Source: Bolinopsis microptera
Lineage: Eukaryota; Ctenophora; Tentaculata; Lobata; Bolinopsidae
DNA length: 64,000 nucleotides
Direction: 5' to 3'
Assembly: GCF_026151205.1 (NCBI RefSeq)
Contig: NC_087075.1
Location: 1,667,911-1,731,910, forward strand
The notes under the pieces: model-generated
Seen by the model: only the letters and a program-made list of their open reading frames with translations
Database searches by the model: none
Told to the model about the DNA's origin: nothing
Made by a program: the position numbers and the translations under genes
Shown: positions 31 to 62,575 of the stretch, piece by piece
Position numbering within the stretch: the stretch's first letter is position 1
How the letters are laid out: the number at the start of each line of letters is the position of its first letter

Positions 31-104
31 CTGCGGTGTAGGGGTATCCAGAGTAACTCTGTAAATGAAGGCGTGAGAAGATATCAACAGACTTTTCTCT
101 GATG
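31..104 (-). CDS. LRP-like gene: opening exon of propeller 6 (gene continues beyond window)
   Basis: Acceptor TTTCTTTCAG precedes 104 and donor GTACTG follows 31. In the incoming phase 1 it reads [16 protein letters not shown], the usual first strand of an LRP propeller. An alternative internal AG near 58 would give a 28-bp exon without such a match, so I prefer 104. Confidence 0.75.
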
Positions 105-3100
105 CTGAAAGAAAATTGTGAGTTAGAATCTGGTTGATGATTCCCTAGCACGTATTGAGTTTATTCTAATTATTTCTAATTATTTCTAATTATTTCTAAT
201 TATTTCTAATTATTTCTAATTATTTCTAATTATTTCTAATTATTTCTAATTATTTCTAATTATTTCTAATTATTTCTAATTATTTCGTCTTGATTACTTA
301 TTTTGTATCAGGATGAGAACCTGCCCACTAAGATCCCTCCAGGATCCAGATATTAAGGAGTTACCTCTAAGGTGTTACAAGGTGTTACAAAGTGTTACAC
401 GGTGTTACAAGGTGTTACAAAGTGTTACAAGGTGTTACAAAGTGTTACCTCTACAAGTGACACCGTCCTCATCCAGCATGAACAGGTCAGGACACAAGCA
501 CTTCACTCCCGTTTCACTAAGTGTACACGTGTGCGAACAGTTCCCGTTGTTCGTCAGACAGGGGTCCTCCGCTGGAACACAAGGAAATATTTTGAAACAT
601 TCAAGAGATATCTATGTGGGATTGAAACACACGGGAATGATATTCAAGAAAACAGAGTAAAACGAAAATTTTCTTGAAAGAGCAGAAAGAAATGTTATGT
701 GTAATTTGTATTATAAAGCTAATTAGTATTACGACAGTAAGCATATAATATGATATAGTAAAGACAAACTTACCACACGTTTTGCCGCCTATACCGTCTA
801 TAAGTTGTAAGTGAGTCTTACAAGCACATAAAGCTCCACTGGGGGTTTTAAGACAGAGATGTGAGCAACCGAAGTTATCATTAGCACATTCATTCGTTCC
901 TGAGGCACACATCATTAGCAATGTATAGTGAGGGAGATAAACGATATCTCAATAATTGTTAATGACGCTTTAAAGAAATACATGGTATCGATGAGTACTA
1001 TTTATATTGGAGATTTAATTGATCTGAAACACAAATAATCATGAATGAAGGGGAGGGGGGGGGGGTTAAAGGGGAAACTAATTCCAGTGTTCTCACCAAC
1101 AGGATTACTATACACGCCACTAACCTGTCTGAGTCCTGTGATCATAGTGATGGATTGTCATGAGGTTACTGTGGTAACTGTGGTTACTGTGTGGTTACTG
1201 TGTGGTTACTATACTCTCCACAAACCTGTCTGAGTCCTGTGATCGTAGTGATGGATTGTCATGTGGTTACTGCGGTTACTGTGTGGTTACTGTGTGTGGT
1301 TACTGTGTGGTTACTATACACGCCACAAACCTGTCTGAGTCCTGTGATCGTAGTGATGAATTGTCATGTGGTTACTGTGGTTACTGTGGTTACTGTGGTT
1401 ACTGTGGTTACTGTGTGGTTACTGTGTGGTTACTATACACGCCACAAACCTGTCTGAGTCCTGTGATCGTAGTGATGGATTGTCATGTGGTTACTGTGGT
1501 TACTGTGGTTACTGTGTGGTTACTGTGGTTACTGTGGTTACTGTGGTTACTGTGGTTACTGTGTGGTTACTGTGGTTACTATACACGCCACTAACCTGTC
1601 TGAGTCCTGTGATCGTAGTGATGGATTGTCATGAGTCTCTTGAAGTTGTTGAGAACAGAGGAGCGTTCTGTCAGGTTATTGGTGTTTACTGACTCAATAG
1701 CGTTAGTCCCCCAGTCTGTCCACAGTAGAATACCGTCATCTGAACAAATACTGTTATCTAATACTCTTATATCAATAGCTGAATAAGGAGGATACCTTAG
1801 TCGAGAGGATTCCACAAGAAACGTTTCAGGTGGGTGCCTCACTTATTTAGATACAGAGAGAGAGAGAGAGTATTTAAATTATAAAAGATCTTCTGAATAA
1901 GCTAGGCTTTTTTAAGGAATCTGTAGAAATATCAGATGATCACATTGAATACTCCTCCTCTCAATACGTATAAACTAATCACGTACCCGCGATTGTGATA
2001 GAGAAAGGTTGGTAGACTTTAGTAGCGACTATCTTCTCCACATTGTCACCCCTCATGGAGGCTCTACCGATGTAGTCTCTGTTAGCCTCCGTCCAGTACA
2101 TCACTCGGTTTATAGTATCTGATCATTGTTAGTCAATTAAAAAGTCATTAATTAATTAATTAAATCATTAATTACCGAGATAAGCGATTTAATTGGTCAA
2201 TGCCGCAAACTGACTGCTTTATCACTGCAAAACTAAATTTTACTTTCGCTTTTACCGGTTCTCACGTCAACTAGGGTTAAGTTTCATTTTCAGTTAAGAT
2301 GTAAAGCTTTTTTTAAGCAATATTAATTTTTAGCTATACTAATCACTAATGTTTAGCTATACTAATGTTTAGCTATACTAATGTTTAGCTATACCAATTT
2401 TTAGCTATACTAATGTTTAGCTATACTAATGTTTAGCTATACTAATTTGTAGCTATACTAACCTAAGACGAGACCATTAGGCCAGACAATGTCCTCTGTA
2501 ACAAGCCGCTCCCTGTAATTACCGTCCATGTCTACTCGCTCTATTCCAGAGTTGTTGTTCCCCCAGTCAGTCCAGAAAACGTGTCTGTAACAAGTTTAGT
2601 TACATAACTTATCTTTATTAAATTAATAAATTAAATAAAATAACTTACATAACTAATCCTTACTAAACTAAAAAATAAAATAAAATAACTACACTATTCT
2701 TGATAAAAACCACAGTAACCACGGTAACCATACTAAAAGTGTGGTAACTGAATATATTTTCTTTTTTTTAAGTTATAAAAAATAAATATAAAAAAATAAA
2801 TACATTAAAATAAAAAGAAAAAAGTATGGTAACTCACCCTAAGACAGGATCAAGTGCGATAGCTCGAGGTTTTTCCAAGTTATCTGACACGATAATCCTT
2901 CTGGCAGTTCCTTTGCCATCAACTACCTCTATCTTTCCTGCATTAGAAATAGGATGTTTACATCACTTCTTTTACAATGTACACCCTGTAATCTGTATAT
3001 ACATTATACAACATCACTTCTTTTACAATATACACACTGTAATCTGTATATACATTATACAACAGAGCTACTTTTGCGCTCTGAAACTTTGATAGATGGT

Positions 3101-6100
3101 ACACAAGATAGTGAGTGGAAATCATCATTAATGAATTTTGCGATTAGAGAAAATGTTACGAAATGTATAATATATCTAAAATATTTCAGATCATATATCA
3201 AAAATGACTATCACAACGAGTCCAAGAGAAAGTATAACAACTTAAACATCAGAACAATTTAAAAGGAAATGAAAGAGATGAGCAAATTGAAATACCGGAA
3301 GTTTCACCGCCGTTAGTCCAGAAGACATTGCCAGATATCCAGTCCACAGCCAACCCATCCACACTCTCCATATCACCCTCGGCCAGTACCTGCTTAGCTG
3401 TACCGTCCAGCTTGTAGCTAGCTATCTGGTGGTTAAAGGTGTCTCCTACTATCACTCTGAGGAAAACATCGTTAAACTTGCTTAGCTGTACCGTCCAGCT
3501 TGTAGCTAGCTATCTGGTGGTTAAAGGTGTCTCCTACTATCACTCTGAGGAAAACATCGTTAAACTTGCTTAGCTGTACCGTCCAGCTTGTAGCTAGCTA
3601 TCTGGTGGTTAAAGGTGTCTCCTACTATCACTCTGAGGAAAACATTGTTAGACTTGCTTAGCTGTACCGTCCAGCTTGTAGCTAGCTATCTGGTGGTTAA
3701 AGGTGTCTCCTACTATCACTCTGAGGAAAACATCGTTAAACTTGCTTAGCTGTACCGTCCAGCTTGTAGCTAGCTATCTGGTGGTTAAAGGTGTCTCCTA
3801 CTATCACTCTGAGGAAAACATTGTTAGAGGACACGCAACTCACAACTAACAACATACAGTTAACGGTTAACACACCACTCAACAGTTAACACACAGTTAA
3901 CACAAATTTAACACACAACACACAACACAACAATGAACACACAGTTAACTCACAGTTAACTGACATGAATAAAGACACGTTAAATTGCCTATTATATATT
4001 AATATATGTTAAGTTATCTATTTTATTTATTATTTAAGTTATTTGATATTTTTATTAAAGCTTCAGCTAGTTTGGTGTTGTTAGCATTAACGAAATTCTG
4101 GGTCACTAAAATTCATATTTTTCACTGATTTTTTATTTTGATTCGAGTAAGTCAAATCATTTCGGTTAACCTCAATTTCAAACCAAGATAATATGTTTGT
4201 TTGATAGATTAAAATGGATAAGGATACCTGGACTGAAATATCTGTCAAAAATTTGAGGAAGGGGGATATAAGAGTCACAAAATTTTAAGCCCATTTCCGT
4301 TCTTGTCGTTCATTCAAGAGTTGTCCATCTTCGCAAATAATTAACTATGAAAACAACCCAATACATTGTCCACCACATCACCCTCCGCTGACGACGATTA
4401 ACACATGTTTATTGAAAGCTTCTACAAGTTAAACTATCGTACCACTTATATCTTTTTAACCCAACTCCATTCAGTAATAAGACTGCTTATGGCATTAAAA
4501 GTGATGCTGTACAATACACTTGGGCCGGATACTATCTACTCGTCGTTGCCTCATTTTTAATAGGAGACACAACCATTCTCATAGCATCATAGCTAACTCT
4601 AAATCAGTAAATTGACTACCAAAATTTTTCCCCTCAGTTATCAATTTATCAGGGGGGGGGGGGGCATAAGACCATAAATGGTGGATAAATCTGTAAATTG
4701 AGTAGCAAAATAGCATCATGTCCCCTCAAGATATAAGAAATGGGTTTGTTTTTGTAATTTATAGGAAGAGCAATATTGATTCTGTTACCCTCAAGTATGA
4801 GATCAAGTAGGATAACATGTAACAATGAAGAAAAAAGAAATGATGATGTGATACAACTTTAATGCACCACAATTATAGCTCTATTTCCTTTCAGTCGTTT
4901 TAAAAATAGTTATCGCAAATACTTGATTATGACAACAACCCTATATCATGATGAGTACGGTAACAAAACTGCTTATGGCATTAAAAGTGATGCTGTAAGA
5001 TACACTTGGGCCGGATACTATCTATTCGTCATTGCTTCATCTTTAATAGGAGACACAACCATTCTCATAGCATCCATAAAGTACAAGGCCTTTAAACTTC
5101 ACCGGGTCATCATTGTTGTCATCCAGCACATAGCAGTCTGTGACCTGATTGTATCTGCTACCTACGTTCTCCCAAAGTTGGTCTCTGTCATCTCTGATAA
5201 GTGGGTGCTAGGAAACTTCTTCTGCTACTTGTACTCCTATGCACAGTTCTATTCAAACATGACGAGTGTGTTTCTCATCTATGCCATGACAACTAGCAAG
5301 CTGCTCCTTCTGAAATATCCCCTCCAACTTGGAACAACCACTTTGAAGAAAGCACACTTGATCTGCGTGACATGCTGGTTGGCAGCTTTCATCTTACCTG
5401 TGACGCTCCTTCTCGTAGATAAACATGATGTTTTCTTTTCGTATTATATAGGGGCTATCAATGCGAATATGGTTTCTCGTCAGAGGTTTGGCACTATCTG
5501 AGGCCTTGTGTGGCAGTGCTATTTGGATTCATTCCAACATCCCTGGTTGTATTAACCACCATTTGTTTGCTGATTGAAGCCAAAAAAGTTGTTTCCCGGA
5601 GCAGAGAAAGTTTGAAGTGGCAGGGGATCGTGACAACAGTCCTTACAGCGACAGTTTTCTGCTTGTCCCTCCTACCATACGTTGCTTATTTGATCGGGGA
5701 ATCTATCGTTGGTGTAGATGACAAGAGCAAGAGTTCATTCCGCACCACGTTTTATGAAGTTGCACTCTCACTCCTGTCTTTAAACACCATCAGCAACTTC
5801 TACATCTATAGTCTGACCGTGTCTAGCTTCAGATCATTTATCTGGTCGAAAATGCAGATGTCTTATCAGTACACTATCAACGTAACAACTTCTACAAGTC
5901 ACGGTAATAAACAATTTAAGTAGAATATTAATATTATTGATGGTTATTTATCAACCATATTGTCCTGACAGCGGATTTTAATTGAATAGAGGTCGTTCAC
6001 ATATTACGACCCCCTCCCCCTCTGTAATTATTTTTACACATAGCTATTGTGTCAAAATGACACTAGTGTAATCATTTGGAAACCCCCTCCCCCGTGGCTG

Positions 6101-39100: not shown

Positions 39101-42100
39101 AGCTATTTCACAAATAATCGAGCACACTAACTTTTGGGGGATGGTGATGGAGGAAATGGTAGAGTTGGTTATTGTTGAAGTGCTGATGTGGTCGATCTCT
39201 CTTCCTGACAAGTTAGAACTGTAAAATTAGCAATTTCTCTCAAATTGACAAGGGTTCTACCGGCCGATATTTTGAAATCATTTTCAATTCCAACATTTGG
39301 CTGAGTTCCAACTAAAACAATTTGAAGTCTGAACCTCTGAGTTTATTTGAGTAGTTCGGTAGATCTGTTAAGCTACTGAGTATGACAAGAGCTAAATCAT
39401 ATCTTACCTTCGAAGTCGAGCACTTTGATAACACCGAAACTCTGCACAACGTACAGTTTGTTATCTACTTTATCGACTGCCATACAGTTTATGGAGCCTC
39501 CATTGCGTTGTGTGAATATCTGAGGTAACTAGTGGTAACTAGCATAGTAACCTAGTAACTAGCATAGAAACCTGGTAACTAGCATGGTAACCTAGTAACT
39601 AGCATAGTAACCTAGTAACTAGCATAGCAACCTAGTAACTAGCATAGTAACCTAGTAACTAGCTTAGTAACCTAGTCACTAGCATAGAAACCTAGTAACA
39701 TTGCGTTGTGTGAATATCTGAGGTAACTAGTGGTAACTAGCATAGTAACCTAGTAACTAGCTTAGTAACCTAGTAACTAGCATAGTAACCTAGTAACTGA
39801 TGTCCTAGTAACTAGAGGAACCGAGTAACTTAGCTATAACCTAGTAACAGATGTTAGTTTAAACCTTTCAATTGAATTTTTGGGGAAAATAGTAAAATTT
39901 AAGTAACAGCATAAATAATCCCCTTTTAAATAGCTAGTTACCAGTAACTTTATGCAAGGTAAATTATTAACAAGCATGTAAACTCAGGTAACCTAGCATG
40001 TCCGAGTATAAATAAAGAACTGTATCTAGAATGTTTTAACTAAGTAATACATACTAACCTAGTAACTGCATGGTTTTACAGTAACTTAATGTAATAGAAA
40101 CTTGCATAGGGAACCAGTAACCTTCACACTCAGACCTAGTACTAGTCATTTTCATGTTACGATTATTGGGGGGGCAAAAATCAGTAACCAAAATAATAAT
40201 TTAACAAGTGCCAAACAGCTCCAAATTACATAGATGTCATATTGAAGATAAGGACGTTACGAAATAGTGTCAAATTCACCCACGTCGCCTAAGAATTTGT
40301 TATTTTAGACAACTTTTACAAAACAGTGAGTCGAGAAGGGAGCCGCTAAAGTGCCGGAATACAACCTGGCTGTTTTAGTTATGTTTAATACTAAAAAGGT
40401 ATATCCAACATCATTGTAATGAGTTTAAGCAAACTTAGATAATTGCTTGAAAAACACGTTCAGGTAACTTCTACCACGGTTAAACTCGCTTTCCCTACAC
40501 TCAGACCTGGAGTTTAGGCATTACCCTGAAGTGATAACGACTACTGGAGGTTCCCTCCGAGTACAGACAACCAACGGATAAAGTAAACTAGTGCATAATC
40601 AAGCCCGGAACTAAAACTTACGATGTCGATAATTGCAATGTGGCACGGCTATATGTAGGTCATAATAATGTAGTGTTCTATATGTCCGTTTAGATAATTT
40701 AATATCACTGTTCGAAAATTCACTGTTCCACAGAATGAAAAAACGTTCTAGAAATTCATAGAAAATTATTGTTGGGTCTAACGTTACTGCTGATTTCCAA
40801 CGAATATTATGCAATTGATGTCTCAAAAATTGGAGTATATGGATTTTACTCTTTGCATGATAACAATACTCTTAATACATTCTTGAGATCCACTTCAAAT
40901 AAATTTGATTACAACTGTAAATAATCTGAGAATCCAATTTGATTCACATCTCGCAAATACCAACTCTGCAGAAATCTAATCTATGGAAAACAACCTCATA
41001 ATAGCATATTCTGAATAATTAGCAGAATACTCTTGCAGAACCCAAGATCTGATTTTGTCCCATTTCTAGAATAATCTGGCAAATTTTAGTCTTCCAGACC
41101 AACAATGCTTGGTAATATCTGCCGCAATATGGCAATCACATAGTATACCTATAAACTTAGTAGGATCCTAACACATATAACTAGATAAATCCATCAGCTT
41201 TGTGTGGAAATCTGTGAGTTATTCACTATAATGCGTTATTTAGCAATTGCGCTTAACTGACTGTTTTTGGGCTAGCCATAAGGCATACAATTTACTTATA
41301 ACCGGCCATTATATTGATACAATCTATAAGATAGAAAGGTTATTAAAGTATAGAATACTACCCTATGGCTTATAGAAAAGGTAAAGCTTCAAATACTGAT
41401 TGTTATGGCTTCGAGTAAGAATTATGAATTTTTAGTAGTTTGTAGCTAAAATAATCAACCATATGTAAAATTCCAATTTTCTCGAGTTATTGTGTAGTTA
41501 CCGTAGGTCTTTTAAATTGTTTGAGTCTTATTTTTTGGTCAAGCAGTCTACAGAACACCTTTCAGACATATTTGGATGGTACTAACATGTCTAATATAGC
41601 CTGCCCCCCTATTCTGGCCCACTGTGTAATTGCACTGATACACCCAGGGTGGGATAGAAAGTAGTGTCAGAATATACTACCCACCGTGTCAGCAGCTAAG
41701 CCATATTCCATGTTCTTTTTCTTCACGACCAGTTGATCTGGGGTGTGTTCTACAAAGAACATGAGTCCGAGAGAGGGAGCCAACCGCAAATGTGACAGAG
41801 TCGAGCCTGGTCATGTTACTAGTTATGGTGTGTAAATACTAAATAGTCGTGTTATCCAACTTGTTGTGTCATGAACGGTAAGAAAACTTAGATAAGTTGT
41901 GATGAAAAAGCGGATAAACATTTCCTTACCAGGACTGGTGTAGATGGTAGCGTGGTATCCAGGCATGTAAACTTGGATTGTGTTGTAGGAATCACCACCT
42001 GAAGGTGACGTCACCACCCAGACCTGACCTGAGGTGTCCACCTCCACCGAGCTGACAGACACGTTCTCTGGGTAAAGTCACGTGTTAGATAATAATGTCA

Positions 42101-45100
42101 CGTGTTAGATTATAATGTCACGTGTTCGATAATAATGTCACGTGTTAGATAATAATGTCACGTGTTCGATAATAATGTCACGTGTTCGATAATAATGTCA
42201 CGTGTTCGATAATAATGTCACGTGTTAGATAATAATGTCACGTGTTAGATAATAATGTCACGTGTTAGATAATATAACGTGTTAGATAATTTCAAATAGA
42301 AAATATTTTCTGGGTCTACTGTTACTTTGTCTATGATTTCCAACACGTTTTATTATGACAAATCATTGGGCAGCAAACTAAGGAGTACTGAGTAGGGATC
42401 TTTAGACTCCCTTTCTGATACCAATCTCTGCAGAATACCAATCTCTGCAGAATACCAATCTCTGCAGAATACCAATCTCTGCAGAATACCAATCTCTGCA
42501 GAATACCAATCTCTGCAGAATTCCAATCTCTGCAGAATACCAATCTCTGCAGATTACCAATCTCTGCAGAATACCAATCTCTGCAGAATACCAATCTCTG
42601 CAGAATACCAATCTCTGCAGAATACCAATCTCTGCAGAATACCAATCTCTGCAGAATATCAATCTCTACAGAATATCAATCTCTGCAGATTACCAATCTC
42701 TGCAGAATACCAATCTCTGCAGAATACCAATCTCTGCAGAATACCAATCTCTGCAGAATACCAATCTCTGCAGAATACCAATCTCTGCAGAATACCAATC
42801 TCTGCAGAATTCCAATCTCTGCAGAATACCAATCTCTGCAGAATACCAATCTCTGCAGAATACCAATCTCTGCAGAATACCAATCTCTGCAGAATACCAA
42901 TCTCTGCAGAATACCAATCTCTGCAGAATACCAATCTCTGCAGAATACCAATCTCTGCAGAATACCAATCTCTGCAGATTACCAATCTCTGCAGAATATC
43001 AATCTCTGCAGAATACCAATCTCTGCAGAATACCAATCTCTGCAGAATACCAATCTCTGCAGAATACCAATCTCTGCAGAATACCAATCTCTGCAGAATA
43101 TCAATCTCTGCAGATTACCAATCTCTGCAGAATACCAATCTCTGCAGAATACCAATCTCTGCAGAATACCAATCTCTGCAGAATACCAATCTCTGCAGAA
43201 TACCAATCTCTGCAGAATTCCAATCTCTGCAGAATACCAATCTCTGCAGAATTCCAATCTCTGCAGAATACCAATCTCTGCAGAATACCAATCTCTGCAG
43301 AATACCAATCTCTGCAGAATTCCAATCTCTGCAGAATACCAATCTCTGCAGAATATCAATCACAAATAAGTAATAATAATAATATCTTGTATCTAACCAG
43401 CAATAACTGTGGCAGCATCCTCATCAGATAGTGTCGTGTCGCTGTAAAGTGCACGTGTGACGTTATTCCACCAGTACACGTTATTTGCACGTGCAGCTAT
43501 GAGGCTGAACCCTCCGGCTCTCCCTGGCAGCACGTTAAGGCCCTGGAAAGAGAGGTTAGCAAAAATGAGATAAGACATTATATTGATAAGCAGTTGAGAT
43601 AAGAGAATGAGATAAGAGATTATATTGATAAGCAGTTGAGATAAGAGAATGAGATAAGAGATTATATTGATAAGCAGTTGAGATAAGAGAATGAGATAAG
43701 AGATTATATTGAAAAGCAGTTGTCAGAATACCTCCCTCTTGGTATAGAAGAAGGTGCAAGCTCAATATGGTGTTAAGTCCTATCGAAGTATACAAGTATG
43801 ATATTTTATAGTGTAGACAGAAAGTAGAATCACTACCTCGATGGTAGCAGATATCTTGTCCTCTGAGTAGTATCTAGCTAGTCTACCGTACAGTGATATT
43901 ACTACCTCGTAGTCCTCATCTGAAATATTATGTAGATTAGAACTGGGGGGGGGGGGGGGGATACTAGGTAGGGTTTATAGGAACTGTTATCATAATATCA
44001 TACCTATGGAGTTAGTGTTAAGTTAGCATTAAGGGATGATGGGAAGGGGTGGGGCACAGTGGGGCACCACACTAAGAAGGGGGGACATAGTGGGGCACTA
44101 CACTAAGAAGGGGGGACATAGTGGGGCACCACACTAAGAAGGGGGGATATAGTGGGGCACCACACTAAGAAGGGGGGACATAGTGATGTACCACACTAAG
44201 AAGGGGGGACATAGTGGGGCACCACACTAAGAAGGGGGGACATAGTGGGGCACCACACTAAGAAGGGGGGACATAGTGGGGCACCACACTAAGAAGGGGG
44301 GGGGGGCGGGGGCACAATGGGGCACCACACTAAGAAGGGGGGACATAGTGGGGCACCACACTAAGAAGGGGGGCATAGTGGGGCACCACACTAAGAAGTG
44401 GGGCACCACACTAAGAAGGGGGGACATAGTGGGGCACCACACTAAGAAGGGGGGACATAGTGGGGCACCACACTAAGAAGGGGGGGGGGGGCGGGGGCAC
44501 AATGGGGCACCACACTAAGAAGGGGGGACATAGTGGGGCACCACACTAAGAAGGGGGGCATAGTGGGGCACCACACTAAGAAGTGGGGCACCACACTAAG
44601 AAGTGGGGTACCACACTAAGAAGGGGGGCGGGGGCACAATGGGGCACCACACTAAGAAGGGGGGATATATAAATACTCACGGAAACAAAGACCAGTAGTC
44701 TCATTGAAAGATAACATCTCATCACACAGACAGTGAGGAGTGTTGGAGACTGAGTCTGCGATACAGAGTCCGTTGTCACAGTAACCGGCTCTATCACATG
44801 CTGTGTTACCGTTATCACACTCCCAAACTACTTCCAGCACCTACAACATCTTGTTTAGATCTTTACATTTTAAACATTTTAAACATTTTGGTCCGGGGAT
44901 ATACTTTAATATATACTTTAATATATTTTAATATACTTTAATATACTTTAATATACCTATATTATCTCGAATCTCGATTCAAACTTTGGCCGTTTCATTT
45001 CTTTAAAGGCCTATAATGTATAGATTAGATTTGCCTTTCATGCAAAGTTAGTCTTGTTCAAAGATATTGATACTTGACCAATTTATGGGCCAAAATATAT

Positions 45101-45269
45101 CAAATTTGGTGCATATTCCCAAATATGGGCATATGGTTTTTGATTCATAATTTAGCCATTTTTGTCCAGTCTCGATGAAAATTCAAATACAAGTTCAGGG
45201 GACCACTAGCTACAAGTAGAGCACCTTAAAGCGGGTTTTGGGCAGGGGTGTAGGAATGATTTTCTTCAT

Positions 45270-45301
<32 letters not shown>

Positions 45302-48300
45302 GCAAATTCTAAATATTTTTTGGTGCTTCGCCACAGACTTAATTTTTTGGCGCTTCGTGAGAAAAATATTTTCGGCTCAGAATGATCAGGGTAGCATGAA
45401 ACATGAGCAAAAGTAGTTTTCAAGAAAACTTTTTCAAGAAAATTTTTGACTTTGAAAATTTTTGAATTAAAAAATTTTCAGTAAAAAAAACCCGAACATT
45501 TTTTTTCCCAAAAATTTTTAGAAACCTAAATTAAAAAGTTGGCCCTTTTTGGCCCCTTGCCCAGATTTCATGGGGGGGGGGGGGTGGCGATGGCCCCCCT
45601 GCTCCCCCGCTTCCTACACCCCTGGTTTTGAGCATTTTTAGGTGGTTCTGCATAATTGGGCCAAAAAGGGACGAGATATGGGCGCGGCTGCCCTGTACGA
45701 TTGATGGATATTATATCTAGCTAGCTACAGACCACTCATTTTTTTAGATTTTCTTTAAGAGAGGCTGGGCCTGGATGGCCCACGAGAGGATAGAAAGATG
45801 AACTAAGACAACATACGAATAGTCTCTAATTCTCACATCGGTCTTTCTGGTCGAGCTCCTTGGGCACAATTAGGCGTTAGGTGCGGTTTGGGAAATTGAC
45901 AGTAGTGGTGATATGCTGGTTGTCAAATATTTCATTGACTGAGAGGTCCTGGAAATATTGCCCCCTTATTTGGGCGATAGCCGGGCACTGACCGAGAAAG
46001 TGTGAGACACCGCACATAGGACAAGCACTGATGCTTGATTTGCCAATGAAGTGAAGGTGTTTTTGAAGGCCACAATGTCCCGTGATAAGGTGCACTGCAG
46101 TTCTGTAATTTTGTCTGTTGTTGCTAAGTGTAGTGTTAAGGTTTTTGATGATGTTGACGTGTTTGCAGCCGAGTGTCGTTTTGGTGTGTCTGGTACCATC
46201 AGTTAACCACAGTTTCCTGATGCAGTCTGGTGACTTTGTCGTTGATCAGGCGTTTGATGAAGATTGTGAAATTGAAAACTTGAAAATGGACCCACATTCA
46301 CTGGTTGTGCCAAGCTTCGCCAGTTCATCTGCTTTTTGTTTCCCCACAACCCGCTTAGTCATCGGCCACCGCCTAATAGCTAGTAAATAGCCATCAGCCG
46401 GCCAGTGACCACTTTTGAAGTTCCAGCTAGTGACCGCCTAGTAGCTACTTTTAATTTTAGTGACTACTAGCATTTGTGTTGCTAGTAGCTGGCTAGTGAC
46501 CGCCTAATAACCCCTTAGTAGCCACTCTTAATTTAACAAAGAAGCTAGGTATATTAAAGTATATTAAAATGTAGATTTTTCCCCGATTTTGACCCGGGGA
46601 TATACTTTAATATGGTTGCCCCCCCCCCCCCCCCCCCCCCCCCGGGAATTTTCTACTTTTCCTTTGCTAGCAGGACTAGCTAATAGCACTAATAGCTAGA
46701 AGGACTTGTTATTAATGCTATGGAAAGAAAGTAACAAATATTAGCTACCTGTCCTGGGGCACCAGTGCACTCTCCCACACTTCCATTTAGTGTGATATTA
46801 CAGGTAGACGCCCCAACACACATTGTACTGATCTGTCCTGTGATGTCTTCTGTGCACGTGCTCGTACCAGTTCCGCACGTGCTGCAAAAAGAGAGATCAG
46901 TTTCAAGCATGAAGTGATCAGTTACAAACATGAAGAGATCAGTTACAAACATGAAGAGATCAGTTACAAGCATGAAGTGATCAGTTACAAACATGAAGTG
47001 ATCAGTTACAAACATGAAGAGATCAGTTACAAACATGAAGAGATCAGTTACAAGCATGAAGTGATCAGTTACAAACATGAAGTGATCAGTTACAAACATG
47101 AAGTGATCAGTTACAAACATGAAGTGATCAGTTACAAACATGAAGTGATCAGTCACAAACGAGATAATATCTGGTACCATCTGATAATATTACTCAAATA
47201 TTACTCAAATAATTTGCGGAGGAACTTGAATAAGTCAACTTATAAATTTGCGAACCTAAAAACTAGTGAGGCTTCAGGTTACCTGATATGGGGTGAGGTA
47301 AGGATGGTAGCAGTGACTCTAGTTAGTGGATAAGAGGTAAGTTACCTGATATGGGGTGAGGTAAGGATGGTAGCAGTGACTCTAGTTAGTGGATAAGAGG
47401 TAAGTTACCTGATATGGGGTGAGGTAAGGATGGTAGCAGTGACTCTAGTTAGTGGATAAGAGGTAAGTTACCTGATATGGGGTGAGGTAAGGATGGTAGC
47501 AGTGACTCTAGTTATAGTTCCTCCAGACACAGGACAAGAAAGCATTTTAGTGTCACTCGCACACGACCTTTCTAGTATCCTGAGATGTGACGTTTTGTAG
47601 TAACTGGGTACAATTGTAATATGTATAAGATATTAATTACACATATTACTTTTTAATTATATATAAAAGATTTGTTTGAATTTGAGAAGAAAAAGTTTGT
47701 TTAACGGAATTATGATCTAATATAAATAAAAATTATAAAGCCTTGCAGATAACCGAGTGATATTTACCCTTTAGGACGCTGATCTTTGTGCACCACCTTA
47801 ATACCAGTTAACATACTCTCAAACTGTACAGTGAGCGTTCCAACCTTCTCTCCTGTGTACTTGTTCAAAGTCACTACATCGGAGGAGTCTATCACGTACA
47901 GTAGATCTCCTGGTAATATAACTAGAGTTACGAGCTATCACGTACAGTAGATCTCCTGGTAATATAACTAGAGTTACGAGCTATCACGTACAGTAGATCT
48001 CCTGGTAATATAACTAGAGTTACGAGCTATCACGTACAGTAGATCTCCTGGTAATATAACTAGAGTTACGAGCTATCACGTACAGTAGATCTCCTGGTAA
48101 TATAACTAGAGTTACGAGCTATCACGTACAGTAGATCTCCTGGTAATATAACTAGAGTTACGAGCTATCAGATACAGTAGATCTCCTGGTAATATAACTA
48201 GAGTTACAAGCTATCACGTAGAGTAGATCTCCTGGTAATATAACTAGAGTTACGAGCTATCAGATACAGTAGATCTCCTGGTAATACAACTAGAGTTACG

Positions 48301-51300
48301 AGCTATCACGTACAGTAGATCTCCTGGTAATATAACTAGAGTTACGAGCTATCAGATACAGTAGATCTCCTGGTAATATAACTAGAGTTACGAGCTATCA
48401 CGTACAGTAGATCTCCTGGTAATATAACTAGAGTTACGAGCTATCACGTACAGTAGATCTCCTGGTAATATAACTAGAGTTACGAGCTATCAGATACAGT
48501 AGATCTCCTGGTAATATAACTAGAGTTACGAGCTATCACGTACAGTAGATCTCCTGGTAATACAACTAGAGTTACGAGCTATCAGATACAGTAGATCTCC
48601 TGGTAATATAACTAGAGTTACGAGCTATCAGATACAGTAGATCTCCTGGTAATATAACTAGAGTTACGAGCTATCACGATACAGTAGATCTCCTGGTAAT
48701 ATAACTAGAGTTACGAGCTATCACGTACAGTAGATCTCCTGGTAATATAACTAGAGTTACGAGCTATCAGATACAGTAGATCTCCTGGTAATATAACTAG
48801 AGTTACGAGCTATCAGATACAGTAGATCTCCTGGTAATATAACTAGAGTTACGAGCTATCACGTACAGTAGATCTCCTGGTAATATAACTAGAGTTACGA
48901 GCTATCACGTACAGTAGATCTCCTGGTAATATAACTAGAGTTACGAGCTATCAGATACAGTAGATCTCCTGGTAATATAACTAGAGTTACGAGCTATCAG
49001 ATACAGTAGATCTCCTGGTAATATAACTAGAGTTACGAGCTATCACGTACAGTAGATCTCCTGGTAATATAACTAGAGTTACGAGCTATCAGATACAGTA
49101 GATCTCCTGGTAATATAACTAGAGTTACGAGCTATCAGATACAGTAGATCTCCTGGTAATATAACTAGAGTTACGAGCTATCACGGTACAGTAGATCTCC
49201 TGGTAATATAACTAGAGTTACGAGCTATCACGTACAGTAGATCTCCTGGTAATATAACTAGAGTTACGAGCTATCACGTACAGTAGATCTCCTGGTAATA
49301 TAACTAGAGTTACGAGCTATCACGTACAGTAGATCTCCTGGTAATATAACAAGAGTTACGAGCTATCACGTACAGTAGATCTCCTGGTAATATAACTAGA
49401 GTTACGAGCTATCACGTACAGTAGATCTCCTGGTAATATAACTAGAGTTATGAGCTATCACGTACAGTAGATCTCCTGGTAATATAACTAGAGTTACGAG
49501 CTATCACGTACAGTAGATCTCCTGGTATATAACTAGAGTTACGAGCTATCACGTACAGTAGATCTCCTGGTAATATAACTAGAGTTACGAGCTATCACGT
49601 ACAGTAGATCTCCTGGTAATATAACTAGAGTTACGAGCTATCACGTACAGTAGATCTCCTGGTAATATAACTAGAGTTACGAGCTATCACGTACAGTAGA
49701 TCTCCTGGTAATATAACTAGAGTTACGAGCTATCACGTACAGTAGATCTGCTGGTAATACGACTAGAGTTACGAGCTATCACGTACAGTAGATCTGCTGG
49801 TAATATAACTAGAGTTACGAGCTATCACGTACAGTAGATCTCCTGGTAATATAACTAGAGTTACGAGCTATCACGTACAGTAGATCTCCTGGTAATATAA
49901 CTAGAGTTACGAGCTATCACGTACAGTAGATCTCCTGGTAATATAACTAGAGTTACGAGCTATCACGTACAGTAGATCTCCTGGTAATACAACTAGAGTT
50001 ACGAGCTATCACGTACAGTAGATCTCCTGGTAATATAATTAGAGTTACGAGCTATCACGTACAGTAGATCTCCTGGTAATATAACTAGAGTTACGAGCTA
50101 TCACGTACAGTAGATCTCCTGGTATACAACTAGAGTTACGAGCTATCACGTACAGTAGATCTCCTGGTAATATAATTAGAGTTACGAGCTATCACGTACA
50201 GTAGATCTCCTGGTAATATAATTAGAGTTACGAGCTATCACGTACAGTAGATCTCCTGGTAATATAACTAGAGTTACGAGCTATCACGTACAGTAGATCT
50301 CCTGGTAATATAACTAGAGTTACTATCACGTACAGTAGATCTCCTGGTAATATAACTAGAGTTACGAGCTATCAGATACAGTAGATCTCCTGGTAATATA
50401 ACTAGAGTTACGAGCTATCAGATACAGTAGATCTCCTGGTAATATAACTAGAGTTACGAGCTATCACGTACAGTAGATCTCCTGGTAATATAACTAGAGT
50501 TACTATCACGTACAGTAGATCTCCTGGTAATATAACTAGAGTTACGAGCTATCAGATACAGTAGATCTCCTGGTAATATAACTAGAGTTACGAGCTATCA
50601 GATACAGTAGATCTCCTGGTAATATAACTAGAGTTACGAGCTATCACGTACAGTAGATCTCCTGGTAATATAACTAGAGTTACGAGCTATCAGATACAGT
50701 AGATCTCCTGGTAATATAACTAGAGTTACGAGCTATCAGATACAGTAGATCTCCTGGTAATATAACTAGAGTTACGAGCTATCAGATACAGTAGATCTCC
50801 TGGTAATATAACTAGAGTTACGAGCTATCAGATACAGTAGATCTCCTGGTAATATAACTAGAGTTACGAGCTATCACGTACAGTAGATCTCCTGGTAATA
50901 TAACTAGAGTTACTATCACGTACAGTAGATCTCCTGGTAATATAACTAGAGTTACGAGCTATCAGATACAGTAGATCTCCTGGTAATATAACTAGAGTTA
51001 CGAGCTATCAGATACAGTAGATCTCCTGGTAATATAACTAGAGTTACGAGCTATCAGATACAGTAGATCTCCTGGTAATATAACTAGAGTTACGAGCTAT
51101 CAGATACAGTAGATCTCCTGGTAATATAACTAGAGTTACGAGCTATCACGTACAGTAGATCTCCTGGTAATATAACTAGAGTTACGAGCTATCAGATACA
51201 GTAGATCTCCTGGTAATATAACTAGAGTTACGAGCTATCACGTACAGTAGATCTCCTGGTAATATAACTAGAGTTACTATCACGTACAGTAGATCTCCTG

Positions 51301-54300
51301 GTAATATAACTAGAGTTACGAGCTATCAGATACAGTAGATCTCCTGGTAATATAACTAGAGTTACGAGCTATCACGTACAGTAGATCTCCTGGTAATATA
51401 ACTAGAGTTACTATCACGTACAGTAGATCTCCTGGTAATATAACTAGAGTTACGAGCTATCAGATACAGTAGATCTCCTGGTAATATAACTAGAGTTACG
51501 AGCTATCAGATACAGTAGATCTCCTGGTAATATAACTAGAGTTACGAGCTATCAGATACAGTAGATCTCCTGGTAATATAACTAGAGTTACGAGCTATCA
51601 CGTACAGTAGATCTCCTGGTAATATAACTAGAGTTACGAGCTATCAGATACAGTAGATCTCCTGGTAATATAACTAGAGTTACGAGCTATCAGATACAGT
51701 AGATCTCCTGGTAATATAACTAGAGTTACGAGCTATCACGTACAGTAGATCTCCTGGTAATACAACTAGAGTTACGAGCTATCACGTACAGTAGATCTCC
51801 TGGTAATATAACTAGAGTTACGAGCTATCACGTACAGTAGATCTCCTGGTAATATAACTAGAGTTACGAGCTATCAGATACAGTAGATCTCCTGGTAATA
51901 TAACTAGAGTTACGAGCTATCACGTACAGTAGATCTCCTGGTAATATAACTAGAGTTACGAGCTATCACGTACAGTAGATCTCCTGGTAATATAACTAGA
52001 GTTACGAGCTATCACGTACAGTAGATCTCCTGGTAATACAACTAGAGTTACGAGCTATCACGTACAGTAGATCTCCTGGTAATAAACTAGAGTTACGAGC
52101 TATCACGTACAGTAGATCTCCTGGTAATATAACTAGAGTTACGAGCTATCACGTACAGTAGATCTCCTGGTAATATAACTAGAGTTACGAGCTATCACGT
52201 ACAGTAGATCTCCTGGTAATATAACTAGAGTTACGAGCTATCACGTACAGTAGATCTCCTGGTAATATAACTAGAGTTACGAGCTATCACGTACAGTAGA
52301 TCTCCTGGTAATATAACTAGAGTTACGAGCTATCAGATACAGTAGATCTCCTGGTAATATAACTAGAGTTACGAGCTATCAGATACAGTAGATCTCCTGG
52401 TAATATAACTAGAGTTACGAGCTATCAGATACAGTAGATCTCCTGGTAATATAACTAGAGTTACGAGCTATCAGATACAGTAGATCTCCTGGTAATATAA
52501 CTAGAGTTACGAGCTATCAGATACAGTAGATCTCCTGGTAATATAACTAGAGTTACTATCAGATACAGTAGATCTCCTGGTAATATAACTAGAGTTACGA
52601 GCTATCAGATACAGTAGATCTCCTGGTAATATAACTAGAGTTACGAGCTATCAGATACAGTAGATCTCCTGGTAATATAACTAGAGTTACGAGCTATCAC
52701 GTACAGTAGATCTCCTGGTAATATAACTAGAGTTACGAGCTATCACGTACAGTAGATCTCCTGGTAATATAACTAGAGTTACGAGCTATCAGATACAGTA
52801 GATCTCCTGGTAATATAACTAGAGTTACGAGCTATCACGTACAGTAGATCTCCTGGTAATATAACTAGAGTTACGAGCTATCACGATACAGTAGATCTCC
52901 TGGTAATATAACTAGAGTTACGAGCTATCAGATACAGTAGATCTCCTGGTAATATAACTAGAGTTACGAGCTATCACGTACAGTAGATCTCCTGGTAATA
53001 TAACTAGAGTTACGAGCTATCACGTACAGTAGATCTCCTGGTAATATAACTAGAGTTACGAGCTATCACGTACAGTAGATCTCCTGGTAATATAACTAGA
53101 GTTACGAGCTATCACGATACAGTAGATCTCCTGGTAATATAACTAGAGTTACGCTATCAGATACAGTAGATCTCCTGGTAATATAACTAGAGTTACGAGC
53201 TATCAGATACAGTAGATCTCCTGGTAATATAACTAGAGTTACGAGCTATCAGATACAGTAGATCTCCTGGTAATACAACTAGAGTTACGAGCTATCAGAT
53301 ACAGTAGATCTCCTGGTAATATAACTAGAGTTACGAGCTATCAGATACAGTAGATCTCCTGGTAATATAACTAGAGTTACGAGCTATCAGATACAGTAGA
53401 TCTCCTGGTAATATAACTAGAGTTACGAGCTATCAGATACAGTAGATCTCCTGGTAATATAACTAGAGTTACGAGCTATCACGATACAGTAGATCTCCTG
53501 GTAATATAACTAGAGTTACGAGCTATCAGTACAGTAGATCTCCTGGTAATATAACTAGAGTTAGCTATCAGATACAGTAGATCTCCTGGTAATATAACTA
53601 GAGTTACGAGCTATCAGATACAGTAGATCTCCTGGTAATATAACTAGAGTTACGAGCTATCACATACAGTAGATCTCCTGGTAATATAACTAGAGTTACT
53701 ATCAGGTACAGTAGATCTCCTGGTAATATAACTAGAGTTACTATCAGATACAGTAGATCTCCTGGTAATATAACTAGAGTTACGAGCTATCACGTATAGT
53801 AGATCTCCTGGTAATATAACTAGAGTTACGAGCTATCACGTACAGTAGATCTCCTGGTAATATAACTAGAGTTACGAGCTATCAGATACAGTAGATCTCC
53901 TGGTAATATAACTAGAGTTACGAGCTATCACGTACAGTAGATCTCCTGGTAATACAACTAGAGTTACTATCAGATACAGTAGATCTCCTGGTAATATAAC
54001 TAGAGTTACTATCAGGTACAGTAGATCTCCTGGTAATATAACTAGAGTTACTATCAGGTACAGTAGATCTCCTGGTAATATAACTAGAGTTACTATCAGA
54101 TACAGTAGATCTCCTGGTAATATAACTAGAGTTACGAGCTATCACGTACAGTAGATCTCCTGGTAATATAACTAGAGTTACGAGCTATCACGTACAGTAG
54201 ATCTCCTGGTAATATAACTAGAGTTACGAGCTATCACGTACAGTAGATCTCCTGGTAATATAACTAGAGTTACGAGCTATCACGTACAGTAGATCTCCTG

Positions 54301-57300
54301 GTAATATAACTAGAGTTACGAGCTATCAGATACAGTAGATCTCCTGGTAATATAACTAGAGTTACGAGCTATCACGTACAGTAGATCTCCTGGTAATATA
54401 ACTAGAGTTACGAGCTATCACGTACAGTAGATCTCCTGGTAATACAACTAGAGTTACGAGCTATCACGTACAGTAGATCTCCTGGTAATACAACTAGAGT
54501 TACGAGCTATCAGATACAGTAGATCTCCTGGTAATATAACTAGAGTTACTATCAGATACAGTAGATCTCCTGGTAATATAACTAGAGTTACGAGCTATCA
54601 GATACAGTAGATCTCCTGGTAATATAACTAGAGTTACGAGCTATCAGATACAGTAGATCTCCTGGTAATACAACTAGAGTTACGAGCTATCAGATACAGT
54701 AGATCTCCTGGTAATATAAGTAGAGTTACGAGCTATCAGATACAGTAGATCTCCTGGTAATACAACTAGAGTTACGAACTATCAGATACAGTAGATCTCC
54801 TGGTAATATAACTAGAGTTACGAGCTATCAGATACAGTAGATCTCCTGGTAATATAACTAGAGTTACGAGCTATCACATACAGTAGATCTCCTGGTAATA
54901 TAACTAGAGTTACTATCAGGTACAGTAGATCTCCTGGTAATATAACTAGAGTTACTATCAGATACAGTAGATCTCCTGGTAATATAACTAGAGTTACGAG
55001 CTATCAGATACAGTAGATCTCCTGGTAATATAACTAGAGTTACGAGCTATCACATACAGTAGATCTCCTGGTAATATAACTAGAGTTACTATCAGGTACA
55101 GTAGATCTCCTGGTAATATAACTAGAGTTACTATCAGATACAGTAGATCTCCTGGTAATATAACTAGAGTTACGAGCTATCACGTATAGTAGATCTCCTG
55201 GTAATATAACTAGAGTTACGAGCTATCACGTACAGTAGATCTCCTGGTAATATAACTAGAGTTACGAGCTATCAGATACAGTAGATCTCCTGGTAATATA
55301 ACTAGAGTTACGAGCTATCACGTACAGTAGATCTCCTGGTAATATAACTAGAGTTACTATCAGATACAGTAGATCTCCTGGTAATATAACTAGAGTTACT
55401 ATCAGATACAGTAGATCTCCTGGTAATATAACTAGAGTTACGAGCTATCACGTATAGTAGATCTCCTGGTAATATAACTAGAGTTACGAGCTATCACGTA
55501 CAGTAGATCTCCTGGTAATATAACTAGAGTTACGAGCTATCAGATACAGTAGATCTCCTGGTAATATAACTAGAGTTACGAGCTATCACGTACAGTAGAT
55601 CTCCTGGTAATACAACTAGAGTTACTATCAGATACAGTAGATCTCCTGGTAATACAACTAGAGTTACGAGCTATCACGTACAGTAGATCTCCTGGTAATA
55701 TAACTAGAGTTACGAGCTATCAGATACAGTAGATCTCCTGGTAATATAACTAGAGTTACGAGCTATCAGATACAGTAGATCTCCTGGTAATATAAGTAGA
55801 GTTACGAGCTATCACGTACAGTAGATCTCCTGGTAATATAACTAGAGTTACGAGCTATCAGATACAGTAGATCTCCTGGTAATATAACTAGAGTTACTAT
55901 CAGATACAGTAGATCTCCTGGTAATATAACTAGAGTTACGAGCTATCACGTACAGTAGATCTCCTGGTAATATAACTAGAGTTACGAGCTATCAGATACA
56001 GTAGATCTCCTGGTAATATAACTAGAGTTACGAGCTATCAGATACAGTAGATCTCCTGGTAATATAACTAGAGTTACGAGCTATCACGTACAGTAGATCT
56101 CCTGGTAATATAAGTAGAGTTACGAGCTATCAGATACAGTAGATCTCCTGGTAATATAACTAGAGTTACGAGCTATCAGATACAGTAGATCTCCTGGTAA
56201 TATAACTAGAGTTACGAGCTATCACGTACAGTAGATCTCCTGGTAATATAACTAGAGTTACGAGCTATCACGTACAGTAGATCTCCTGGTAATATAACTA
56301 GAGTTACGAGCTATCAGATACAGTAGATCTCCTGGTAATATAACTAGAGTTACGAGCTATCACGTACAGTAGATCTCCTGGTAATCTAACTAGAGTTACG
56401 AGCTATCACGTACAGTAGATCTCCTGGTAATATAACTAGAGTTACGAGCTATCACGTACAGTAGATCTCCTGGTAATATAACTAGAGTTACGAGCTATCA
56501 CGTACAGTAGATCTCCTGGTAATATAACTAGAGTTACGAGCTATCACGTACAGTAGATCTCCTGGTAATACAACTAGAGTTACGAGCTTTCTTTTGGTAA
56601 TATAACTAGAGTTACGAGCTTTCTTTTGGAAATATAACTAGAGTTACGAACATTCTTTTGGAAATATAACTAGAGTTACGAGCTTTCTTTTGGAAATATA
56701 ACTAGAGTTACGAGCTTTCTTTTGGAAATATAACTAGAGTTACGAACATTCTTTTGGTAATATCGCTTCAGTCACGAACATTTTTTGAGATCATTATATG
56801 ACTCGATAGGTTTACAGTTTTTAAACCGATGAAGCTTAAATATGAAAATCTTGAAGAGTTTCACTCACCGGAGACGTCTATCTTAGTAGCAGCCATGTTG
56901 GTTGGTAACATAAAGTTCATAATCTCGTTACCATGGTTACTACCACCACTGATATCCAGAGCAGATATGAAGTAGTCACCACTCTCTTGGTAACTGTAGT
57001 ACAAGACGGACTCTCTCACGTCCACCGCCAAACTACAGCGAGGAGGTTAAATTATAGTTGGTTACTAGGTCTAAACATTTCCGCTACAAAAACTAAGTTA
57101 ACCAATAACAACAGTTGTCATATCGAATAAAATAATCCCACTCAAAGACTCAAGACATGAAATAACATAAAAACTCCACTCCGAGTGGTTTACAAAGAAG
57201 TTACCTCCTGGGTTCGACCACAGTGCGAGTAGTTAACTTGAGAGGAGTAACTTACCTCCTGGGTTCGACCACAGTGCGAGTAGTTAACTTGAGAGGAGTA

Positions 57301-60300
57301 ACTTACCTCCTGGGTTCGACCACAGTGCGAGTAGTTAACTTGAGAGGAGTAACTTACCTCCTGGGTTCGACCACAGTGCGAGTAGTTAACTTGAGAGGAG
57401 TAACTTACCTCCTGGGTTCGACCACAGTGCGAGTAGTTAACTTGAGAGGAGTAACTTACCTCCTGGGTTCGACCACAGTGCGTGTAGTTAACTTGAGAGG
57501 AGTAACTTACCTCCTGGGTTCGACCACAGTGCGAGTAGTTAACTTGAGAGGAGTAACTTACCTCCTGGTTTCGACCACAGTGCGAGTAGTTAACTTGAGA
57601 GGAGTAACTTACCTCCTGGGTTCGACCACAGTGCGAGTAGTTAACTTGAGAGGAGTAACTTACCTCCTGGGTTCGACCACAGTGCGAGTAGTTAACTTGA
57701 GAGGAGTAACTTACCTCCTGGGTTCGACCACAGTGCGTGTAGTTAACTTGAGAGGAGTAACTTACCTCCTGGGTTCGACCACAGTGCGTGTAGTTAACTT
57801 GAGAGGAGTAACTTACCTCCTGGGTTCGACCACAGTGCGAGTAGTTAACTTGAGAGGAGTAACTTACCTCCTGGGTTCGACCACAGTGCGAGTAGTTAAC
57901 TTGAGAGGAGTAACTTACCTCCTGGGTTCGACCACAGTGCGAGTAGTTAACTTGAGAGGAGTAACTTACCTCCTGGGTTCGACCACAGTGCGAGTAGTTA
58001 ACTTGAGAGGAGTAACTTACCTCCTGGGTTCGACCACAGTGCGAGTAGTTAACTTGAGAGGAGTAGCCCCGAATCGGAGGAGAAGAGAGTACACTCCTCC
58101 CTTGTCTCCTCCGGTGTAATCAAACACTGTCCAATACACCTCTCTGACACGGAGAGATTAGATAATTGAGAGATTAGATAATTGGGTGATTAGCTAACTA
58201 TGTTATCTTCTAGTCTAATTTTCAAATTTTATTTAAAAAATGTTTCTATTTAAAAAGTTTAATCAAACTTTATCAAGACAAGCTTATGGAGTTCCAACAA
58301 GGTGATATAATATCATGATCTGGAATATATTATATAATATAGATATATCAAGTTTACCCTCTATAAGGGTTGACAGCAAGACTTTCTGCGTTGCTCAATA
58401 TTGTCTCTATATATCCAGTTTGTTCCACGTCCACATACACACTAACTCTGTGTAGCCTGGGATGTTGCTAGGTTACTAATGCGGTTACTAGGTTACTAAT
58501 GCAGTTACTAACGCGGTTACTAATGCGGTTACTAGGTTACTAATGCAGTTACTAACGCGGTTACTAATGCAGTTACTAGGTTACTAATGCAGTTACTAAC
58601 GCGGTTACTAATGCGGTTACTAATGCGGTTACTAGGTTACTAATGCAATTAGTAACGCGGTTACTAATGCGGTTACTAATGCGGTTAGTAATGCGGTTAG
58701 TAATGCGGTTAGTAATGCGGTTAGTAATGCGGTTACTAGAGCGATAATTAGGTTACTAGTGCGGTTACTAGGTTACTAACAACTTCGCAATATCATTAAA
58801 AACGGAGGTTTAAATCTGATTTTAAAGCAAACTCCCAATTATTACACCCCAGTTCCATGGCCGGATATTATGCCAAATTATTAGACGGAGATCGTCTACT
58901 GATATTTCTCCGGATATTTCTCCGGTTTGCAGTTCCACGACCGGAGACCATCTACGGTAATTTTGTTGATTCTGTATGAATTAATCTCCGAGAAATTCCC
59001 GGAGAGCTTCATCTCCGTCAAATACAGTAGACGGAGCCGGAGAATCATCTCCGGAGATGATCTACGGGAAATGGACCTCCGTCTAATAATTTGGAATAAT
59101 ATCCGTCCATGGAACTGGGGGGTTAGTATATCTCAGATGTAAACGTAATAAAACTGACCCGTCAAGAGAGGACACGAATATCCCCAACATAGAGTCCAGC
59201 CAGACGATTATCTTGTTAACCCAGTCATATCCTACACTCGTTATAATTCCACCACCTGACAAACATACACTTTAAGTCATAATGTAGTGTGTAGTAGTGG
59301 TATAGTAGTATGTAGCAGTGGTATAGTAGTATGTATCAGTCGTATAGTAGTATGTAGCAGTCGTATAGTAGTATGTAGCAGTCGTATAGTAGTATGAATC
59401 AGTCGTATAGTAGTATGTATCAGTCGTATAGTAGTATGTATCAGTCGTATAGTAGTATGTAGCAGTCGTATAGTATTATTTAGCAGTCGTATAGTAGTAT
59501 GTATCAGTCGTATAGTAGTATGTATCAGTCGTATAGTAGTATGTATCAGTCGTATAGTAGTATGTATCAGTCGTATAGTAGTATGTAGTAGTTTTATGAC
59601 GCATGAACGAGGAAAGTGGTTTTACACAAGTAACGAAATTCCACCTCATTTAACTAAACTAGAGAGGGAGAATAACAGATTCTGAAGAATCAAGTAGTAT
59701 GTAGAGTAGTAGTAGTAATGCTAGTTATAGAGTCTAGACAGGGGAGCCCTCTATATAGTAGACTTAGTACAACTAATCAAACTCTCAGGAGAGTAGTGAT
59801 CAGTCATTTCATTTGAATAATTAATCCCTTGAGAATTAAACAATTCTCTGTAAATTATTTGGCGGTCAGAAGAAAGCTAAGTAGGGGTGCGTTGCTTTAA
59901 ATCATGGTTAGAGTAAAGATGGGATTGCAGTGGATTCAAAGATTAAATAATGGTTTTCAAGAGTGCTCGAAGATGAAATCAGTATAAGATATTGAATAAA
60001 ATGGATCATGAAAAGAATAATCCAAAGCATTTAATTTAAAACATTTAAAAAAACATTTAATTTATTAAACATCGATAATCATGGCATGGATATTCTAAAT
60101 TCGGATACGATAGATTACATTTTCATTTGTAAATGTAATCTATCGTTTTTTTTTCGTCTGTTTTAAATTCACAGCAGAAAACAACAAAAATAAAATTCAG
60201 CGAAGCAAATCAGCTTAATCTCAGATTCACAACAAAACTCCTGTTGGAGAAGAAACAAAAAACTAATTGAAACAGAATTAAGTGAGTGACTCCCAGGAGG

Positions 60301-62352: not shown

Positions 62353-62575
62353 CTGAAACACAAGGATTTATATAGAGAAGATTTGTTCAAGGAGAAATGC
62401 AACAACTTGAATTCCGTTACGTATCATCATACAGCATTTCTTACTAATAGGTAGTAGTATAATTGCTTTTGCATCGTTTTATTGAGCTCGCTTATCAGCA
62501 AATTTATCTACTGAGCAAGCATTACCATCGGCTATCTCTGTGTGTATACATATTGTCTTGTATATACATTACTCC

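Follow-up and report, generated by a model that had tools for sequence, protein, structure and literature searches.

The closest described counterparts of the arrays reported here are the lancelet "mirages", which two reports document in Adh3, TnC, the globin genes BflGb6 and BflGb9, and PGBD5 (PMC3087553, PMC3902484). These are tandem repeats lying over an exon-intron boundary, at either end of the intron. Their units, which measure from 10 up to about 160 bp, are alike within a cluster, and many keep the AG or GT (PMC3087553, PMC3902484). In PGBD5, according to its report, repeats of 60 and 108 bp lie over splice sites, and Adh and TnC are named there as further cases (PMC3902484). A related event is described for a potato gene in which a tandem duplication crossing a boundary made a new intron (PMC4974935). 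Here, we describe an LRP-like gene of the ctenophore Bolinopsis microptera whose introns hold many tandem arrays, a number of which contain the end of the neighbouring exon together with its splice site. Because their anatomy is the same as in the lancelet cases, we class these arrays as mirages, taking lancelets as the animals in which mirages were found and not as part of their definition; the pattern is both real and dense in this one large receptor gene.

An LRP-like gene and its surroundings

The window, that is, the whole stretch of 64,000 nucleotides that was analysed (C4:1667911-1731910), holds the following gene.

31-62352, minus strand: LRP-like gene with EGF-type and LDL-receptor class B modules, running from X1 (62352-62194) to X45 (104-31)

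Its 46 exons were rebuilt manually, using open frames together with GT/AG sites, and checked by script, the 38 exons of X1-X37 giving a stop-free translation of 1460 codons and the eight exons of X38-X45 one of 340 codons. In X1-X37, Pfam matches LDL-receptor class B repeats (E 2.3e-22) as well as FXa_inhibition modules (E 9.3e-22), and the LRP-like label, which the gene already bore in a preliminary description, is therefore correct. Same-strand matches to LDL-receptor class B extend beyond the window on both sides, from C4:1642519 to 1752114, in a genome of 264.65 Mb and 232 contigs. X38 begins in phase 2 whereas the exon before it is of phase 1, and the model must therefore lack at least one exon between the two; in a single gene, that exon would have to lie in the interval from X37 to X38 (3457-26583), where a simple motif search for a phase 1-to-2 exon found none.

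The same interval contains, on the plus strand, clustered rhodopsin-type GPCR genes that closely resemble one another (4200-26300); one copy was checked with Pfam and matched 7tm_1 (E 2.7e-20). Elsewhere in the LRP-like protein, X10-X12 (46692-47603) resemble a galactose-binding (SUEL-type) lectin domain, for which Pfam gave no match at E 0.01. Open frames in two regions (45571-46437 and 62486-64000) look by eye like pieces of non-LTR retrotransposons, two of these frames matching no Pfam family, and one intron has homopolymer runs of 31 G (45270-45300) and 25 C (46619-46643). Downstream of the window (C4:1637911-1667910), same-strand exons show, again by eye, kringle-, C-type lectin-, fibronectin type II- and F5/8-like modules among LRP-type modules.

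Exon edges copied into neighbouring introns

The 100 overlapping rows that Tandem Repeats Finder (TRF) returned for the window were merged and measured against the exon edges, and each edge was compared with its adjacent intron by ungapped shifts (over 2 kb at each end in the case of the X37-X38 intron). At 11 of the 90 internal edges, 13-69 exonic bases and the adjoining splice site are copied into the neighbouring intron, as follows.

61912-62211, minus strand: array over the X1 donor, 18 exonic bases, 4 extra copies
57201-58065, minus strand: array over the X7 donor, period 51, 45 exonic bases, 16 extra copies
47889-56787, minus strand: array over the X9 acceptor, period 46, 21 exonic bases, 184 extra copies counted
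47278-47514, minus strand: array over the X10 donor, period 63, 43 exonic bases, 3 extra copies
42073-42290, minus strand: array over the X15 donor, period 20, 13 exonic bases in exact register, 9 extra copies
39535-39848, minus strand: array near the X18 acceptor, with one acceptor copy and 19 exonic bases, displaced by 198 bp
38576-38606, minus strand: single copy of 27 bases of the X19 end (donor edge) plus GTAT, displaced by 165 bp
35250-36073, minus strand: array over the X26 acceptor, period 116, 55 exonic bases, 7 extra copies
26894-29947, minus strand: array over the X36 donor, period 47, 42 exonic bases, 64 extra copies
3391-3826, minus strand: array over the X38 acceptor, period 88, 69 exonic bases, 4 extra copies
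1105-1633, minus strand: array over the X42 donor, best-scoring period 105, 38 exonic bases, 4 extra copies

Tandem units are found at nine of these 11 edges, the exceptions to head-to-tail copying being X19 and X18, each with a single displaced copy. Copies were counted as near matches of an exonic core (12-25 bases, with up to 2 or 3 mismatches), and exact-word counts are slightly different (190 instead of 184 for X9, 8 instead of 7 for X26). When all 46 exons were searched with exact words, the same 11 exons came back, each at its edge, plus two 13-base matches elsewhere. Dispersed copying of exons was rejected, only two exon-to-intron matches of 13 or more bases missing an edge: one from X21, part of a near match of 16 bases whose start lies 5 bases into the exon, and one from X24, which is antisense.

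The preliminary description had listed 13 sites at which an array or a smaller duplication contains an exon edge, and ten of these stand, with at least 13 exonic bases in register: the donors at 1095 (38 bases), 26889 (42), 47281 (43), 57205 (45), 61895 (18) and 38580 (27), and the acceptors at 3393 (69), 35190 (55), 47889 (21) and 39698 (19). The remaining three (362, 2336 and 31072) start at intron base +0, +1 and +0, respectively, and have no exonic bases in register, the first of them showing at its far end the last four exon bases followed by GTAAC. Conversely, the array at 42072, which had been thought merely to stop near an exon, contains the end of X15 and its donor in nine extra copies. 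The end of X15 (42262-42300) also carries a second, diverged copy of the array unit within coding sequence, TRF reaching 29 bases into the exon; on its sequence, it looks as though the exon had taken in one unit, with the donor sliding by the same length.

The splice dinucleotide, GT or AG, is intact in 297 of the 297 counted copies. Decay of the decoy sites was accordingly rejected as a feature of these arrays (0/297 lost), and there is no sign of selection against decoys. Units within a cluster are alike, with a minor-allele frequency of 0 to 0.05 per site in the alignable arrays (five donor arrays and one acceptor array, with at least four copies), and since their exonic and intronic parts vary equally little, recent homogenisation explains the conservation of the sites. 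Contrary to what had been proposed, the duplicated sites are not equivalent to the originals, because the nearest extra site, if used, would cause a frameshift at seven edges (X1, X15, X36, X42, X9, X26 and X38) and introduce an in-frame stop at the other four (X7, X10, X19 and X18). The modelled protein comes from the exon-proximal site only, which is presumably also the site that the cell uses: joined at these sites, with all copies taken as intronic, the exons stay open, which on the sequence would be consistent with a normal mRNA.

Crossing of exon edges and starts at donors

That arrays starting at random in introns would rarely include exon edges was the central argument of the preliminary description, and it fails because the introns are so short. 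As a null, we took tandem duplication with a random breakpoint in the pre-array intron, edge crossing being allowed as the exon-proximal site survives. Under this null, a unit u in an intron I crosses an edge with a probability of about 2(u-1)/(I+u-1), so that a 50-bp unit in a 200-bp intron does so about 4 times in 10. With arrays collapsed to one unit, the median intron shrinks from 344 to 202 bp, and the arrays of the window with a period of at least 8 make 10 crossings in 46, against 8.60 expected (P=0.34). Other cut-offs of period and score give P values of 0.05-0.34, the strongest arrays (period 20+, score 200+) nearing significance with 10 crossings in 19 against 6.40 (P=0.05). Without the X37-X38 intron, there are 9 crossings in 43 against 8.65, or against 11.05 and 12.73 when introns are capped at 200 and 150 bp, respectively. 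The share of exonic bases in nine of the crossing units is compatible with uniformity (KS P=0.34). All tests took periods of at least 8 and thus excluded homopolymers and the 4- and 6-bp arrays, including one at 26509 (at +5 of the X37 donor); the arrays of the X37-X38 intron stayed out of the edge-distance tests (one version excepted), three near its acceptor being part of the 46-array test, and the X19 copy, which is no TRF array, lies outside all null counts.

The claim that arrays are associated with edges above chance therefore does not hold for crossings. It partly holds for crossing or lying within 30 bp of an edge, which applies to 28 of the 43 arrays of the window against 19.64 expected (P=0.002), or against 25.69 (P=0.27) with introns capped at 200 bp. 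A further departure concerns arrays that begin 0-5 bp inside a donor, such as the following.

61247-61409, minus strand: array starting 3 bp inside the X3 donor, period 75, 2.1 copies
37715-37755, minus strand: array starting 2 bp inside the X21 donor
36431-36455, minus strand: array from the first intron base after X24, period 11, 2.3 copies
33797-34078, minus strand: array starting 5 bp inside the X29 donor, period 8
31064-31334, minus strand: array from the first intron base after X33, period 23, with GTAAGT in each unit
2311-2461, minus strand: array starting 1 bp inside the X40 donor
369-448, minus strand: array from the first intron base after X44, with AGAG plus GTAAC (exon-end-like) just past its far end

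Such starts account for 7 of the 43 arrays, against 1.05 expected from measured introns and 1.38 or 1.62 with introns capped at 200 or 150 bp (P about 0.0001-0.001, in a bin chosen post hoc); the figures are 5/29 against 0.93 for scores of at least 100 (P=0.002) and 4/28 against 0.73 for periods of at least 15 (P=0.005). No array of the window (0/43) lies within 4 bp of an acceptor. Eroded crossings were considered as a source of the donor-abutting arrays and rejected, only one of nine inspected (X44, by eye) having an exon-end-like stretch at its far end and a programmed search finding none. GTAAC or GTTAC occurs in 9 of 47 array consensuses (nine arrays, 369-58770), and the two words are mildly enriched in introns outside arrays (18 and 22 occurrences against 10.8 and 13.0 in shuffled sequence).

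The donor-start prediction was fixed before exons were modelled in the flanks, 30 kb on each side of the window, in which 48 further exons were built around hand-picked protein cores, a program setting the edges by splice scores and phase (one of 49 cores had no acceptor and was dropped). A home-made exon predictor, which found 26 of 46 exons exactly in cross-validation (74 predicted) and 34 of 46 at the setting used (77 predicted), was rejected and left out of the statistics because it made too many false exons, which is why the flanks were modelled on hand-picked cores and why the arbitrary stretches described below served for array density only. The main flank counts cover 27 arrays in phase-matched introns of up to 3 kb, a restriction set after the prediction, and leave aside one doubtful exon (flankL 21701-21939, with an array seemingly inside an over-long exon). 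Copies of edges with five or more exonic bases are found in the introns at 10 of 96 flank edges, the doubtful exon included. Crossings number 5 in 27 against 3.90 (P=0.34; 5.39 with capped introns), or 6 in 28 against 4.05 with the doubtful exon. Donor starts at 0-5 bp number 3 in 27 against 0.57 (P=0.02; 0.78 and P=0.04 capped), and 4 against 0.67 over all 49 arrays in the modelled flank gaps (P=0.005). As many as 20 of the 27 arrays cross an edge or lie within 30 bp of one, against 10.60 (P=0.0001; 14.52 and P=0.02 capped), and 3 of 27 are found no more than 4 bp away from an acceptor, where 0.48 would be expected (P=0.01). Both the crossing result and the donor-start excess are thus repeated in the flanks, in a sample that comes from the same gene or gene cluster as the window.

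Arrays are not peculiar to this gene. Those with a period of at least 8 number 51 over eight 10-kb stretches taken arbitrarily from other contigs (80 kb) and 47 in the 64-kb window, which makes the genome as a whole array-rich; 12 stretches near LRP-like genes have 3 to 15 each, and all 20 of these further stretches contain arrays. The one exception seen is the GPCR cluster at 4200-26300, where 22.1 kb hold a single array of period 8+, as compared with 43 in the 33.8 kb of the remaining introns (P about 1e-8 in a binomial test on raw length); the stretch may be young.

Chance duplication as the probable origin, its rivals and the known counterparts

We consider it likely that these arrays are mirage-type minisatellites that arose by tandem duplication at chance positions in short introns and were tolerated, in a genome rich in minisatellites. 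The steps would be that (i) tandem duplications arise in an array-rich genome, here within a gene with many short introns, (ii) a unit of 20-120 bp often spans an exon edge by chance, (iii) the duplication is tolerated, the exon-proximal splice site staying put and a normal mRNA still being possible and (iv) arrays grow and stay alike via slippage or unequal exchange, which would also preserve the additional splice sites. Directly observed are the copies, the confinement of these to exon edges, the intact dinucleotides, and crossing counts and overlap lengths that fit random breakpoints; the mode of array growth, like the use of the exon-proximal site, is what we infer from them. The published lancelet mirages speak for this account too, since they behave in the same manner (PMC3087553, PMC3902484). 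Short introns make boundary-crossing duplications commonly expected, so mirages as such need no special mechanism. The preliminary description had offered tolerance and a mechanism acting at exon-intron borders as alternatives: tolerance is supported by the near-random crossings and the uniform exonic share of units, and a border mechanism is superfluous for crossings but may yet lie behind the crowding of arrays at exon edges, donors above all. That crowding does go beyond chance duplication, which leaves unexplained why arrays that do not cross start so near exon edges, the donor above all. Against chance placement, arrays hug edges more than random breakpoints would have it unless introns are capped at 150-200 bp, and in the flanks they do so even then (P=0.02); the donor-start residue is real.

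It is conceivable, if rather unlikely, that exon edges, and donors in particular, seed the duplications, arrays beginning at or across the edge. This might happen because the donor consensus, which can be read as an imperfect 4-bp repeat (AGGT-AAGT, AGTT-AGT), could seed slippage, or because replication or repair is held up at splice sites by their chromatin and by R-loops. The donor starts speak for seeding, in the window (7/43 against 1.05-1.62, post hoc, with P=0.005 in the period-15 subset) and in the flanks (3/27 against 0.57-0.78, P=0.02-0.04; 4/49 against 0.67 in all gaps, P=0.005), as do the edge-hugging of 20 of 27 flank arrays and the recurrence of GTAAC/GTTAC in arrays and introns alike. 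However, crossings are in excess neither in the window nor in the flanks; seeding by donors only is at odds with the flank arrays that abut acceptors (3/27 within 4 bp, and 0/43 in the window); and the numbers are small, from one gene and with flank edges chosen by a program. Sense GC skew ranges from -0.63 to +0.62 over the ten crossing arrays, with no common sign or strand bias, and we therefore reject the link to R-loops that had been suggested for this locus. In its widest form, which we regard as about equally unlikely, the genome's minisatellites would be born at exon edges, donors above all, the repeat-like sequence of the donor or its binders acting as a breakpoint hotspot. If so, many intronic arrays would be by-products of splice sites and mirages the visible tail of a duplication process directed to them.

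That repeat assembly created the arrays or inflated their copy numbers seems improbable, although copy numbers could nevertheless be wrong: one array is 8.9 kb long with near-identical 46-bp units, and one of the lancelet mirages was aberrantly assembled in a draft genome, as stated in the globin report (PMC3087553). Yet 11 edges with differing units and periods, and arrays in all 20 further stretches, would be hard to produce by error, and re-sequencing, according to the PGBD5 report, argues against assembly error in that case (PMC3902484). Least probable is selection for duplicated sites, with extra donors and acceptors strengthening exon recognition or making regulated isoforms, since these isoforms would be broken at 11 of 11 edges and exonic and intronic unit parts vary equally little where alignable, even if the dinucleotide is kept in every counted copy.

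The arrays are of interest on three counts, namely that (i) 11 edges and 297 intact extra splice sites in one gene are a natural test of how splicing ignores identical decoys, (ii) the null supplied here is quantitative and predicts boundary-crossing duplications to be common in short introns and (iii) the donor-start pattern is specific and testable, and bears on where minisatellites are born as well as on intron sliding and gain.

How does this gene compare with the known systems? The remaining arrays of its introns are like ordinary intronic minisatellites, without exonic bases, and it is the exon edge or splice site in the unit that sets the mirage arrays apart from these. In the potato case, a tandem duplication likewise crosses an intron-exon boundary and duplicates splice signals (the AGGT model of intron gain), whereas the copies in the LRP-like gene sit inside modelled introns and the joined exons remain open (PMC4974935). 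With the lancelet mirages, it shares tandem units that span the boundary, retained splice signals and the likeness of units in a cluster (PMC3087553, PMC3902484). In lancelet, tests were made of splicing and of variation in length, whereas the LRP-like gene is known from the sequence of one haplotype. What distinguishes it from the lancelet cases is its extent, with 11 of 90 edges affected in one gene and up to 184 counted copies at a single edge.
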